Source: a virus. Taken from it: 35,214 nt of DNA. The stretch lies in IMG/VR virus record IMGVR_UViG_3300046804_000305, positions 1 to 35,214 of that record; one strand, 5' to 3'. The position numbers were made by a program, and so were the translations under genes. This document shows positions 6,387 to 35,214 of the stretch, one piece after another. The notes under the pieces were generated by a model. That model was not told the DNA's origin. It saw only the letters and a program-made list of their open reading frames with translations, and did not search any database. The stretch's first letter is position 1. The number at the start of each line of letters is the position of its first letter.

Positions 6387-6389
6387 TTA

Positions 6390-6811: not shown

Positions 6812-6905
6812 AATTTGTTTGTGTAGCCCCTCCCCCTAGCATACTTCAGAGCATATGTCAATAGGTAGTTTCCCTAATAGACAAACTAGCTAGAATCTGC
6901 TAAGT

Positions 6906-6965: not shown

Positions 6966-7009
6966 TAGGGTTTTCCCTAATAGACTTCTTCCTAGACCTG
7001 CGATATACT
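6966..7009 (+). promoter_or_regulatory. Stem-loop early promoter 1
   Basis: TAGGG-TTTT-CCCTA forms a 5-base stem with a 4-base loop (6966-6979). The -35 TAGACT at 6981-6986 follows at once, then a 17-base spacer and the -10 TATACT at 7004-7009. A transcript would begin near 7016, just before the AAAGGAGGT site of the first early gene. Confidence 0.72.
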
Positions 7010-7039
7010 AGACTCATAGTAACTAAAGGAGGTAATTAA

Positions 7040-7123
7040 ATGATCTACTTATTAGCCGTTATAGTATATGCACCTTTATATCTAATCATAGGTACGATCA
7101 TATACTGTGAATTAAAAAGATAA
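7040..7123 (+). CDS. 27-residue single-membrane-segment peptide
   Basis: A strong ribosome binding site AAAGGAGGT (7024-7032) precedes an ATG encoding MIYLLAVIVYAPLYLIIGTI followed by a short polar tail ending CELKR. Almost the whole peptide is one hydrophobic helix with a positive C-terminus. It is the first gene of the rightward early region, directly under stem-loop promoter 1, and its stop codon touches the next stem-loop. Early phage micro-proteins of this kind often act at the host membrane, but no specific role can be assigned. Confidence rests on the strong binding site and promoter context. Confidence 0.6.
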   Translation: MIYLLAVIVYAPLYLIIGTIIYCELKR

Positions 7124-7165
7124 GGGTTTGCCCTAGTAGACAAATCCAGTTTACTAGGGTATTCT
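7123..7165 (+). promoter_or_regulatory. Stem-loop early promoter 2 with operator-like repeat
   Basis: AGGG-TTTG-CCCT (7123-7134) is followed by the -35 TAGACA (7137-7142), a 17-base spacer and the -10 TATTCT (7160-7165). In addition CCCTAGT (7131-7137) is matched by ACTAGGG (7153-7159), a 7-base inverted repeat with a 15-base centre that straddles the -35 and ends at the -10. Confidence 0.75.
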
Positions 7166-7185
7166 AAACAAATGGAGGTGATCAA

Positions 7186-7362
7186 ATGGAATTAACTGTA
7201 AAAGTAAAACAAGTTTATGGCAATGATATGATTTATCCAGTAAACGATACGGCACAGAAGTTTGCTAATTTGATTGGTAAGAAAACTTTTAGTAAAGTAG
7301 ATCTTGCAATTATCAGTAATTTAGGGTATAAGATTACACAAGTACAGGAGGTTTTAATATGA
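7186..7362 (+). CDS. Small conserved-looking early protein, 58 residues
   Basis: This ORF starts at an ATG 7 bases after GGAGGTG and ends in an ATGA overlap with the next gene. The protein begins MELTVKVKQVYGNDMIYPVN and continues with a Lys-rich helical middle and a short ITQVQEVLI tail. Proteins of this size with a VKxVYG...IYPV opening recur in environmental phages. Function unknown. The tight overlap with the gene at 7359 and the promoter just upstream make it a real gene. Confidence 0.7.
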   Translation: MELTVKVKQVYGNDMIYPVNDTAQKFANLIGKKTFSKVDLAIISNLGYKITQVQEVLI

Positions 7363-7622
7363 AGCGGGAATACATTAAAGCATTTAATACACTGAAAAAG
7401 CTAGGCTGCCCAGTTTATGAACATCCAGATGATCGAGGTAATTTTAGTATCGATTTAGAAGCAGCTACAGAAGCTGGGGTAACATGGGCAGATTATTACG
7501 ATGGATATATGATACCTGGCTGGGATTTTGGAATTAACCCAGAGATTACGAAAGTATTAGACAATCAAGGGTTATTTGCAGAATGGCAAAATCCTGGAAG
7601 ACTAGTAGTATATCAGGTATAA
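7359..7622 (+). CDS. Hypothetical early protein, 87 residues
   Basis: The start overlaps the preceding stop (ATGA) and has an AGGAGG site at 7347-7352. The protein is acidic, with aromatic patches WADYYDGYMIPGWDFG in the middle, and a helical N-terminus (MKREYIKAFNTLKKLGC). No known motif. Translation is probably coupled to the 58-residue gene upstream. The stop codon lies in the first arm of stem-loop promoter 3. Confidence 0.72.
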   Translation: MKREYIKAFNTLKKLGCPVYEHPDDRGNFSIDLEAATEAGVTWADYYDGYMIPGWDFGINPEITKVLDNQGLFAEWQNPGRLVVYQV

Positions 7623-7664
7623 GGGTTTGCCCTAGTTTACAAATAAGTTAGACTAGGGTAAATT
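7622..7664 (+). promoter_or_regulatory. Stem-loop early promoter 3 with operator-like repeat
   Basis: AGGG-TTTG-CCCT (7622-7633), then TTTACA (7636-7641), a 17-base spacer and TAAATT (7659-7664). As in promoter 2, CCCTAGT (7630-7636) and ACTAGGG (7652-7658) form an inverted repeat with a 15-base centre. The -10 is weak. Confidence 0.68.
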
Positions 7665-7684
7665 TAACTTAATGGAGGTTTTAT

Positions 7685-7825
7685 ATGTACCAATTTACAG
7701 TAAACGGAAAAGACTTTAAATTTAAGACACTGAAGGAAGCAAGGTATTTTGCACAATTCAACGAAGGTATGACAATCATTAAAAAGGTAAATAAAAATGC
7801 AAGTACATTTAACACTAAAATCTAG
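7685..7825 (+). CDS. Small basic early protein, 46 residues
   Basis: GGAGG (7674-7678) precedes an ATG that opens MYQFTVNGKDFKFKTLKEAR, followed by about 26 residues rich in Lys and Asn. The pattern resembles a short beta-hairpin followed by one helix. It overlaps the start of the next gene by 29 bases in a different frame. It is served by stem-loop promoter 3. No function can be named; the binding site and promoter support its being translated. Confidence 0.6.
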   Translation: MYQFTVNGKDFKFKTLKEARYFAQFNEGMTIIKKVNKNASTFNTKI

Positions 7826-8474
7826 TAATACTAAAACTGGTAAGATACCAGTAAGCACTACTAGTAAGCACTCATGCCCAGATACATGCTCGTTTAAAGA
7901 AGGTGGTTGTTATGCATTAGACTATCACCTTAATATGCATTGGAATAAAGTAACCAATGAAGAGCGTGGTACTGATTGGAATACATTTTGCACTACTGTA
8001 TCAGGTTTTAAACCTAATCAATTATGGAGACACAATCAAGCAGGAGACTTGCCAGGTCAAAATAATATTATTGATACTGTAAAGCTTAAAGCACTAGTAC
8101 AAGCTAATCAAGGTAAAAGAGGGTTTACTTATACCCATTATCCTAGATCAGGTCAAAATGCTATAGCTATCAAGCAAGCTAATGCTCAAGGGTTTACAAT
8201 AAACGCAAGCACTGAAAGCATTACAGAAGCAGATCAAGCATACAATGAAGGGTATCCTACTACTGTAGTATTAGAAGGTCATAGCGACGCTGTAAGCACG
8301 TTTAAAACCCCTTCAGGTAATACAGTGGCAATATGCCCAGCACAATTAAAAGACAATGTAACTTGTGAGACTTGTGCATTGTGTCAAAAATCAGAGCGTA
8401 AAGTTATTGTAGGATTTATCGCTCATGGATCAAGCAAAGCAAAAGTTATTAAGATCTTAGCAGTTAAGGGTTAA
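7797..8474 (+). CDS. Eight-cysteine conserved phage protein, possible metal or Fe-S binding
   Basis: This 225-residue protein has eight cysteines in two groups: C27-x3-C31-x6-C38 (within CPDTCSFKEGGCYA) plus C65, and C180, C190-x2-C193-x2-C196 near the C-terminus. The CxxCxxC spacing and the CP...C...GCYA opening recall the mycobacteriophage Gp88-like family and related uncharacterised phage proteins. The arrangement suggests a metal or iron-sulfur cluster. The middle (about 70-165) looks like an alternating strand-helix fold. It has only a weak upstream binding site, since its start lies inside the 46-residue gene. It is the largest early protein. Function unknown; redox, nucleic-acid processing or host takeover are all open. 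Confidence 0.75.
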   Translation: MQVHLTLKSSNTKTGKIPVSTTSKHSCPDTCSFKEGGCYALDYHLNMHWNKVTNEERGTDWNTFCTTVSGFKPNQLWRHNQAGDLPGQNNIIDTVKLKALVQANQGKRGFTYTHYPRSGQNAIAIKQANAQGFTINASTESITEADQAYNEGYPTTVVLEGHSDAVSTFKTPSGNTVAICPAQLKDNVTCETCALCQKSERKVIVGFIAHGSSKAKVIKILAVKG

Positions 8475-8508
8475 TACCTATAGACAATGTAATAAATTGT
8501 AGTATACT
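8467..8508 (+). promoter_or_regulatory. Stem-loop early promoter 4 (short stem)
   Basis: GGT-TAAT-ACC (8469-8478) gives a short stem with the same 4-base loop size. TAGACA (8481-8486), a 16-base spacer and TATACT (8503-8508) follow. It overlaps the stop codon of the upstream gene and serves the gene at 8541. Confidence 0.68.
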
Positions 8509-8540
8509 TGTATCATCAACTAAGCAAAGGAGAATTAAAA

Positions 8541-8747
8541 ATGTTAGTATTCAAATACGCAAGTAAGAAAGATTTAAAAGCTAGTGTAGGTCAACGATTA
8601 AAGTATATAGAGACTAGTATTTTTGGTAATGAATATGTTAGTACAGGTAAAATAGTAGGTGCTAATCGTCCGCATATTACAGGAATGGGAAGAGAGTTTT
8701 TTGCCGAAGTTACTATGAATGATGGATTAATTGTAGGAGTTAAATAA
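8541..8747 (+). CDS. Hypothetical early protein, 68 residues
   Basis: I chose the ATG at 8541, preceded by AAGGAG at 8527-8532, over an in-frame codon at 8508 that lies inside the promoter. The protein (MLVFKYASKKDLKASVGQRL...) is small and basic with alternating strands. It ends in a region AEVTMNDGLIVGVK that looks like a beta-hairpin. It is flanked by stem-loop promoters on both sides and forms a single-gene unit. Not recognised. Confidence 0.7.
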   Translation: MLVFKYASKKDLKASVGQRLKYIETSIFGNEYVSTGKIVGANRPHITGMGREFFAEVTMNDGLIVGVK

Positions 8748-8751
8748 GATA

Positions 8752-8798
8752 CTATAGGGGTTTTCCCCTATAGACAATGCAGGAATTTATGATAGAAT
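8752..8798 (+). promoter_or_regulatory. Stem-loop early promoter 5 (longest stem)
   Basis: CTATAGGGG-TTTT-CCCCTATAG is a perfect 9-base stem with a TTTT loop (8752-8773). Its last three bases are part of the -35 TAGACA (8771-8776). A 16-base spacer leads to TAGAAT (8793-8798). Because no T-run follows, it is not a simple terminator. It serves the gene at 8824. Confidence 0.75.
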
Positions 8799-8823
8799 GT
8801 ATTTAACTTAGGAGGGTTTAATT

Positions 8824-9000
8824 ATGATGGATACTTATCAAGCAGTAGGATTAGCAGAAGGATTTATTGAAGCAGATACAGAAGAGCAAGTACTTGAAGC
8901 ATGGCAAACCTTAGTAGATACTGGTATGGCATGGCAGTTACAGGGATGGTTTGGACGTACTGCTAGACACTTAATTGAGGAGGGATATATCCATGAGTAA
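8824..9000 (+). CDS. Conserved small phage protein, 58 residues
   Basis: AGGAGGG (8811-8817) precedes the ATG. The protein contains AVGLAEGFIEADTEEQVLEA followed by a Trp-rich helix and GWFGRTARHLIEEGYIHE. This compact AEGF...W..L...G.AW.LQGWFGR pattern recurs in many tailed phages as an uncharacterised short protein. It starts the operon under stem-loop promoter 5 and overlaps the next gene by 8 bases. Confidence 0.75.
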   Translation: MMDTYQAVGLAEGFIEADTEEQVLEAWQTLVDTGMAWQLQGWFGRTARHLIEEGYIHE

Positions 9001-10323: not shown

Positions 10324-10511
10324 GAAAGTTATATAAGGTTTTAGATGATGATGGATCAGTCGTAAGAATCTTTGGTTATAAAGAAGAGGCAGAGAGATTT
10401 AGTAGACTAGATAAATCCCTTAAGATTCAAGTAGTTATGATGGAACGAAAGCGTAACGCTGAGAATAAATTTCAGTGGGCTTATAAAATTTTAGGAGATG
10501 CACTACTATGA
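10320..10511 (+). CDS. Hypothetical protein, 63 residues
   Basis: The ATGA overlap at 10320-10323 and the alignment MRKLYKVLDDDGSVVRIFGY favour this start over an in-frame ATG 12 bases upstream. The protein looks like a short strand pair followed by two basic helices. It ends in another ATGA overlap. Not recognised; probably co-translated with the methyltransferase-like gene. Confidence 0.62.
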   Translation: MRKLYKVLDDDGSVVRIFGYKEEAERFSRLDKSLKIQVVMMERKRNAENKFQWAYKILGDALL

Positions 10512-10750
10512 GATGCTACTGCTGTAATAAAATATTGTCAGACTTTGAAGCTACTCGCAAGAGTGTACATACAAATGAATACTTAGACATGTGTAATAAA
10601 TGTTACGCTACTGTAAGTGATGACCTACTAACATACGAAAGGACAGACCTATATGATGAAGACGAAGATTACGAAGGAGACGAGGGATTGGATAGTAACG
10701 AGTACGATTCTTTTGGTCGTGTGGATAGTAGGCTTGACAATGATATTTAA
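10508..10750 (+). CDS. Small zinc-binding protein with acidic tail
   Basis: This 80-residue protein opens MRCYCCNKILSDFEA, with CYCC at 3-6 and CNKC at about 29-32. These four cysteines fit a zinc-ribbon or treble-clef site. The C-terminal half is extremely acidic (DLYDEDEDYEGDEGLDSNEY). Such combinations occur in small phage proteins that contact RNA polymerase or DNA enzymes, but the role here is not established. The promoter at 10734-10762 starts within its last codons. Confidence 0.7.
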   Translation: MRCYCCNKILSDFEATRKSVHTNEYLDMCNKCYATVSDDLLTYERTDLYDEDEDYEGDEGLDSNEYDSFGRVDSRLDNDI

Positions 10751-10762
10751 ATATGCTATACT
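10734..10762 (+). promoter_or_regulatory. Strong sigma70 promoter for the replication genes
   Basis: TTGACA (10734-10739), a 17-base spacer and TATACT (10757-10762) match the consensus in 11 of 12 positions. It lies at the end of the preceding gene and before the leader repeat and the gene at 10851, so it should drive the primase-helicase operon. It lacks the stem-loop of the earlier promoters. Confidence 0.85.
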
Positions 10763-34101: not shown

Positions 34102-35214
34102 ACGATCACCCAATTAGCACCAGATTCTATTGTAACTGTATAACCTGAATTGATTGTGACAGGACCAGCAGATAAGCCGTTATTCCCTGTTGTTACAGTA
34201 ACATTTTCTGCAATAGTTTGTGAATTATATGCAATTGCTTTAGTTGTAGCAGATCCGAAGTACTGCCCACCAGCAACCGTAGCGGTAGATACTGCAGTGA
34301 TTAAACCTTTACCGTTAACTGTGATGACAGGAATAGAAGTAGAACCACCAAATGATCCAGTATTGCTATTTACTGTAGCAAGTGTTGCATTTGTAATTGA
34401 AGTGCCAGTATTACCTGACATTGTAAGATCACCGCCAGTGACAGAGATAGATCCTGAAACAGTAGCCCAAGAAGTATTTGTTCCATCTGTTGTTAAATAC
34501 TTACCTGAGTTACTTGTTTGAGACGGAACTAAAGCATTAAATGCAGCATTTGCTGTCGTTTGACCAGTACCGCCATTAGCGATTGGTAGAGTACCAGTAA
34601 TATCAGCGGTATTAATTTCAATCGCATCCCACGAAGTATTAGTACCGTCAGTCTTTAGATACTTTCCTGCGTTACCAGTTTGCGAAGGAGTATAACTTGC
34701 AGCGAGTGTAGCAGAAGCTGCAGCAGCCGTGGCAGAGTTAGCAGCAGAGGTCGCACTATTGGCAGCATTAGTAGCTGATGTTGAAGCTGAACTTGCTGAG
34801 TTACTTGCATTAGTTGCACTTGTTGCAGCAGCACTCGCTGAACTTGCAGCATTACTTGCTTGTGTGGTAGCTGTACTTGCTGATCCAGAAGCAGATGTTG
34901 CTGAAGACGCAGCATTGGTTGCTGAAGTACTAGCTGCCGAAGCTGACGATGCAGCATTAGTCGCTGATGTAGATGCAGCAGAGGCACTGTTGCTTGCATT
35001 AGTAGCTTGTGTCGTAGCAGTACTAGCACTTCCTGAAGCCGATGTAGCAGACGAAGCAGCATTAGTAGCGGATGTAGCAGCAGCAGTGGCTGAGTTCGCT
35101 GCATTAGTTGCTGAAGTCGATGCAGCAGAAGCTGAGTTGCTTGCATTCGTTGCTTGAGTCGTAGCAGTAGACTCAGAAGTAGAAGCACTGCTGGCTGAAC
35201 TAGCTGCGTTAGAT
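34098..35214 (-). CDS. Tail fibre protein, C-terminal part (cut by window edge)
   Basis: An open frame runs from the right edge to the stop at 34098 with no start inside, so the N-terminus is missing. Read from 35213, the first 170 or so residues are an Ala/Ser/Thr/Asn repeat (units like ATNASNSASAASTS), a probable trimeric coiled shaft. Then two copies of a GKYL-TDGTNTSW element follow, an ANGGTGQTT motif, and a beta-rich C-terminus ending GANWVIV. These are typical tail-fibre features. The first downstream paralogue starts in its stop codon. Confidence 0.78.
   Translation of the reverse strand, partial: SNAASSASSASTSESTATTQATNASNSASAASTSATNAANSATAAATSATNAASSATSASGSASTATTQATNASNSASAASTSATNAASSASAASTSATNAASSATSASGSASTATTQASNAASSASAAATSATNASNSASSASTSATNAANSATSAANSATAAAASATLAASYTPSQTGNAGKYLKTDGTNTSWDAIEINTADITGTLPIANGGTGQTTANAAFNALVPSQTSNSGKYLTTDGTNTSWATVSGSISVTGGDLTMSGNTGTSITNATLATVNSNTGSFGGSTSIPVITVNGKGLITAVSTATVAGGQYFGSATTKAIAYNSQTIAENVTVTTGNNGLSAGPVTINSGYTVTIESGANWVIV

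Follow-up and report, generated by a model that had tools for sequence, protein, structure and literature searches.

In promoter early stem-loop (PeSL) elements of T4-like phages, a short early promoter is combined with a stem-loop, is repeated before small variable genes and serves as a point of genetic exchange. They were reportedly described by Arbiol in 2010 and Comeau in 2014, and PMC4503421 describes them briefly. The early promoters of phage N4 depend on a specific hairpin and on a virion polymerase of giant size. In cluster K mycobacteriophages, the 17-bp ESAS repeats go together with a GGGATAGGAGCCC box at start codons (PMC3203893), and cluster O mycobacteriophages carry 17-bp palindromes in many copies, whose function is unknown there (PMC4351075). 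Many host-takeover and anti-defence functions come from small early phage genes, which are a main source of them. Outside T4-like phages, how such genes are shuffled is an open question.

The whole stretch of DNA analyzed here (the window) is a virus record of 35,214 bases (IMG/VR IMGVR_UViG_3300046804_000305, positions 1 to 35,214). Its plus strand encodes primase/helicase, a PolA-type polymerase, an exonuclease, a gp2.5-like SSB and ribonucleotide reductase, and its minus strand encodes terminase, portal and internal virion protein. The genome type is podovirus-like, of about 40 kb (primase/helicase, PolA, internal virion protein), and a 39.7-kb relative has largely the same gene set. Judged by ORF sizes, neither the window nor this relative contains an unexplained ORF of polymerase size; the longest window ORF (1066 aa) matches the internal virion protein. 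No integrase was found in the window. The early region begins at about 6.85 kb, adjoining the divergent late genes. At 10508-10750 lies an 80-aa protein, cysteine-rich at its start and acidic in its tail, that occurs in 30 of 31 relatives as well as in distant ones and may serve a core early function. At the end of the record, periodic repeats with units of 21 and 42 nt (34694-35174) lie within a long ORF, possibly a tail fibre gene.

Five predicted early promoters have their -35 boxes at 6981, 7137, 7636, 8481 and 8771, and AGGG-N5/6-CCTA abuts each box on its upstream side. These sites had been proposed in a first-pass annotation, and all of them were confirmed in the sequence. They are listed below together with their associated inverted repeats and with the scores of a clade matrix, which was trained on 84 clade sequences, the window sites among them.

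Cassette P1, 6966..7016, plus strand, from sequence, matrix score 35.7: palindrome TAGGGTTTTCCCTA at 6966-6979, -35 box TAGACT at 6981-6986, 17-nt spacer, -10 box TATACT at 7004-7009; predicted start A at 7016; a 27-aa ORF lies downstream at 7040-7123.
Cassette P2, 7121..7172, plus strand, from sequence, matrix score 39.2: palindrome AGGGTTTGCCCTA at 7123-7135, overlapped by the stop TAA of the preceding gene (7121-7123), -35 box TAGACA at 7137-7142, 17-nt spacer, -10 box TATTCT at 7160-7165; predicted start A at 7172; ORF at 7186-7362.
Second inverted repeat of P2, 7130..7160, plus strand: 7130-7142 pairs with 7148-7160, across the -35 box and spacer; predicted sense RNA fold -21.4 kcal/mol.
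Cassette P3, 7620..7671, plus strand, from sequence, matrix score 26.8: stem identical to that of P2 (AGGGTTTGCCCTA) at 7622-7634, overlapped by the stop TAA at 7620-7622, -35 box TTTACA at 7636-7641, 17-nt spacer, -10 box TAAATT at 7659-7664; predicted start A at 7671; ORF at 7685-7825.
Spacer hairpin of P3, about 7629-7660, plus strand: fold -20.2 kcal/mol.
Cassette P4, 8467..8515, plus strand, from sequence, matrix score 40.3: palindrome AGGGTTAATACCTA at 8467-8480, which includes the stop TAA (8472-8474) of a 225-aa DUF7227 gene, -35 box TAGACA at 8481-8486, 16-nt spacer, -10 box TATACT at 8503-8508; predicted start A at 8515; ORF at 8541-8747.
Cassette P5, 8752..8805, plus strand, from sequence, matrix score 36.3: perfect 22-bp palindrome CTATAGGGGTTTTCCCCTATAG at 8752-8773, overlapping the -35 box TAGACA at 8771-8776, 16-nt spacer, -10 box TAGAAT at 8793-8798; predicted start A at 8805; ORF at 8824-9000.
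Related sixth palindrome, 6856..6883, no strand: lies between two divergent -35 boxes, TTGACA on the minus strand (6861-6856) and TAGACA on the plus strand (6878-6883).

The next best matrix scores in the window were 10.3 (minus strand, 6861) and 9.0, against 26.8-40.3 for the five sites. Because the training set includes the window sites, their scores are not independent; the score gap and the relatives are. With a loose structural definition (GC-rich stem, -35 box and -10 box), five matches were found in the window versus a mean of 0.26 and a maximum of 2 in 300 dinucleotide shuffles. These five comprise four of the listed sites and an unlisted one at 6388, P4 being missed because its stem is poor. 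The inverted repeat, which had been described as common to all five sites, holds at P1, P2, P3 and P5 (hairpin energies with DNA parameters of about -3 kcal/mol at P1-P3 and -8.6 at P5), but P4 makes a poor hairpin (-1.0 kcal/mol), its arrangement being only GGT-TAAT-ACC / AAGG-N7-CCTA. It had also been claimed that no other promoter in the window has the stem-loop. Five further promoter-like sites that match the hexamers at 11-12 of 12 positions (10734 and 15716; minus-strand 6503, 1531 and 31037) indeed lack it, but the sixth palindrome, similar in most clade members, is an exception. Just beyond this divergent palindrome, CCCCTCCCCC at 6827-6836 (late strand: GGGGGAGGGG) is retained in nearly all relatives, including distant ones without cassettes. 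Two of the palindrome-free sites, at 6503-6475 and about 1531-1503 on the minus strand, are alike and precede late genes, each with a perfect TTGACA-17-TATAAT and TG ahead of the -10 box. The site at 10734-10762 (TTGACA-17-TATACT), upstream of the primase genes, is conserved in many relatives.

Relatives were fetched with early-region proteins and with primase, about 80 each and of varying closeness; the clade comprises about 75 loci, some of which are overlapping records of the same contigs. The clade matrix, searched in 40 loci, found 152 sites at a threshold of 10, and none in the reversed sequences at thresholds of at least 10. Some matrix hits were coding false positives (the start of a 46-aa gene; upstream of a 67-aa gene), and after their removal 97 distinct early cassettes remained in the clade loci, preceding about 31 unrelated gene families. 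The earlier proposal of a phage-specific family of early promoters is thus well supported, the family being specific to this clade: the one 20-nt pattern tried had no copies in bacterial genomes, and isolate phages gave only weak partial matches (E 0.2 or worse). Rfam offered no credible match. Motif matches in viral contigs outside the clade fell into three unrelated contig groups, none in a promoter-like context and one within a long ORF, and were rejected.

In nearly all of the 97 cassettes, AGGG stands 14 bp ahead of the -35 box. Spacers of 15-18 nt were permitted in the search, and those of the five window sites and of 96 of the 97 clade cassettes measure 16-17 nt. Of the 97 cassettes, 89 have hexamers that match at 9-10 of 12 positions, and the -35 box is TAGACA, TTGACT or variants. 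Moreover, an A stands 7 nt after the -10 box in 89 of 96 cassettes, including all five window sites, which fits a transcript start there. Hexamers and spacing thus agree with sigma70-type promoters (-35/-10 hexamers 16-18 nt apart). TAGACA, which had been singled out as an unusual -35 box, does differ from the standard but is not essential: relatives alternate TTGACT, TTGACA and TAGACA, so TAGACA can be regarded as a sigma70 -35 variant. Judged from sequence, the five sites are copies of one clade-specific cassette of predicted sigma70-type early promoters, a portable predicted promoter with a palindrome that serves one group of uncultured water phages before tiny early genes.

Each module consists of palindrome, -35 box, -10 box, leader, gene and stop. 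That the sites overlap or follow the preceding stop had been noticed, and this extends to the relatives: among all upstream gene ends found, 48 of 66 have the stop codon within the palindrome, for example the TAA within TAAGGG of P2 and P3, so each such gene comes with a predicted promoter of its own, and its end meets the start of the following module. What had been overlooked is that non-homologous genes are apparently exchanged at the cassettes. When cassettes of unrelated genes are compared, identity stays at background until about 17 nt before the -35 box, climbs sharply to 0.8-1.0 at AGGG and fades about 11 nt past the -10 box. Twelve of 16 recurrent cassette subtypes precede at least two gene families; conversely, at least two subtypes occur in 11 of the 31 families. 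Pairwise homology ends in cassettes at 2.8 times the by-length expectation over the early region and at 2.25 times within the cassette-bearing stretch, although these break-point counts are not mutually independent and gene boundaries attract breaks anyway. In the same stretch, homology ends at gene starts with a cassette had a median of 8 versus 6 at those without (p=0.0014). The clearest cases are hybrids: L179 and L111 join a P4-type stem to the spacer, -10 box and leader of P5; the genes behind them differ, the intervening gene is absent, and the crossover lies in or near CCTATAGACA.

The cassettes are apparently the seam where small early genes are swapped between phages, and the pattern points to recombination as the cause of the mosaic. 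Because many modules share a patch of about 50 nt, homologous recombination at this patch would add, delete or swap small early genes. In about 75 clade loci the seam is readable at single-base resolution, so promoter-mediated gene swapping becomes measurable; early genes of uncultured phages in this group could also be located with the cassette as a simple sequence tag.

By its features, the palindrome resembles a sequence-specific DNA site more than an extruded hairpin. It is the arm sequence that stays conserved, an invariance partly built in by how the sites were collected. P5 can form a 9-bp stem and the other four sites stems of 3-5 bp; in the ACCTA class the mean is -1.2 kcal/mol, and AGGG faces ACCT with a retained mismatch that leaves pairing incomplete. 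A palindrome of this type stands 11-12 bp further upstream of TTGACA or TTGACT in lineages L097, L108, L116, L143, L094, L174 and L186, a shift of about one helical turn. The 11 inserted nt resemble one another across lineages, so this shift may be a single ancestral event. Other palindrome spacings in the scan were reverse-strand readings, coding matches or weak boxes. The spacing also differs by 1 bp between classes, which is unusual for a rigid dimer. The cassette cores match 9-10 of 12 positions, versus 11-12 at the five palindrome-free window sites, a contrast that is suggestive only because the latter were chosen by that cut-off. Taken together, fixed arms, weak stems, the one-turn shift and weak cores favour a DNA site that would aid or control weak promoters. 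Regulation by a protein at the palindrome, raised earlier, is plausible, but no binder was found: a Pfam scan of 30 small or unassigned window proteins gave no HTH or similar domain, a search that a novel family could escape.

A second hairpin, overlooked at first in P2 and P3, lies between the -35 and -10 boxes of 34 of the 97 cassettes; about two thirds, including P1, P4 and P5, lack it. The spacers of these 34 end in TAGGG, mostly within ACTAGGG or TATAGGG, which are complementary to CCCTAGT and CCCTATA at the right arm and -35 box. For 31 distinct sequences, the sense RNA folds with a mean of -18.7 kcal/mol (mean z -3.6) and the antisense with -13.1. Across 25 gapless sequences, 91% of cells pair, more than in any column shuffle or slide; at three pairs both sides have changed, a covariation that is modest and inflated by related sequences. 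The hairpin is broken in the cassettes of one gene family, and some P4-type cassettes of relatives have an unrelated spacer hairpin of similar strength. A direct repeat in the spacer, considered in place of a hairpin, fits less well, the pairing being better kept. The -10 region that follows the hairpin is richer in T (4.35 versus 3.32 of 8 in other cassettes) and could weakly terminate RNA that reads through; as a U tract it is weak, and terminator calling on the plus strand of the window gave none at the cassettes.

We consider it probable that a clade-specific cassette, a palindrome acting as a double-stranded DNA site and recombination at the shared patch together account for these observations. 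A palindrome of 13-14 bp (AGGG...CCTA, centred near -43) adjoins a sub-consensus sigma70-type core, and host RNA polymerase would be expected to read this core because no RNA polymerase gene was found in the phage, judged by ORF sizes. The palindrome would most likely work in its double-stranded form, either as the binding site of a dimeric protein from host or phage or through contact with RNA polymerase, and would help or control the weak cores. The cassette might instead be a composite promoter-terminator that insulates modules at the RNA level: read-through RNA would fold the spacer hairpin with the T-rich -10 box as its U tract, weakly ending the upstream transcript where the next is started. 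The third TAGGG arm, the stronger fold on the sense strand, the kept pairing with its two-sided changes, the better fit than a direct repeat and the T content all agree with this; it is nevertheless possible rather than likely, given that most cassettes have no such hairpin, that the U tract is weak, that no plus-strand terminator was called in this region of the window, and that kinship inflates the modest covariation. It is similarly conceivable, but unlikely, that a phage repressor uses the palindrome as its operator to shut off early genes, with the 6856 site as a link from this shut-off to the late genes. In its favour, all early cassettes have the palindrome, which also lies between divergent -35 boxes, and a third TAGGG half-site does abut the -10 box in P2/P3-type sites; this half-site, however, is confined to a subset, and neither a repressor domain (Pfam, 30 proteins) nor an integrase was found in the window.

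We regard it as improbable that nothing binds the palindrome and that the cassette is no more than a homologous promoter sequence, which recombination has spread and recent descent has kept alike. The cassettes have clearly spread among unrelated genes, but AGGG and CC are fixed while spacers and leaders vary freely, and the palindrome persists beside diverged promoters and at the one-turn shift. Supercoiling-driven hairpin extrusion had been raised as a possibility by the first-pass annotation; with recognition of the hairpin by a polymerase, as in the N4 early promoters, it now seems very improbable indeed. Only the long P5 stem speaks for it; the remaining four sites have short stems, one class retains its mismatch, the arm sequence is fixed, the largest ORF leaves no virion polymerase, and normal -35 and -10 boxes make extrusion unnecessary. 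Compared with our preferred reading of a DNA site in an exchangeable cassette, a more specific version is speculative and rather unlikely: a dimeric protein at AGGG...CCTA would switch on the weak early promoters in step, and the hairpin subset would close the upstream transcript. If this is true, the patch of about 50 nt would be operator, promoter, insulator and recombination seam at once.

Among described systems, N4 shares an inverted repeat near an early promoter, but its giant virion polymerase and specific hairpin are both absent here. The literature searched, with the main PeSL papers outside it, contained no earlier description of this cassette, which is weak evidence of novelty. The SAS/ESAS of cluster K mycobacteriophages likewise recur ahead of many small genes and contain an inverted repeat, but ESAS tends to stay with a gene family (PMC3203893). 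Here, several cassette types can occur within a single family, and no match to GGGATAGGAGCCC with two or fewer mismatches was found at start codons here. The cluster O repeats are also short palindromes in many copies, but they are genome-wide, occur inside genes and are not fixed relative to a -35 box, unlike those described here (PMC4351075). Both are more distant analogues than the PeSL elements of T4-like phages, which by function are the nearest known system. As in PeSL elements, an early promoter is repeated before small variable genes and marks an exchange point between unrelated genes, with the excess of breaks (2.25-2.8 times) and the hybrid cassettes described above. In contrast to the intrinsic terminator formed by the PeSL stem-loop, the palindrome here has another sequence and stands directly before the -35 box without a U tract; a subset has the second hairpin inside the promoter, with a weak U tract, and no plus-strand terminator was called. 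The phage genome here is podovirus-like, of about 40 kb, and belongs to another phage group than the T4-like myoviruses. Since it differs in terminator and phage group, the cassette is PeSL-like, not a PeSL.
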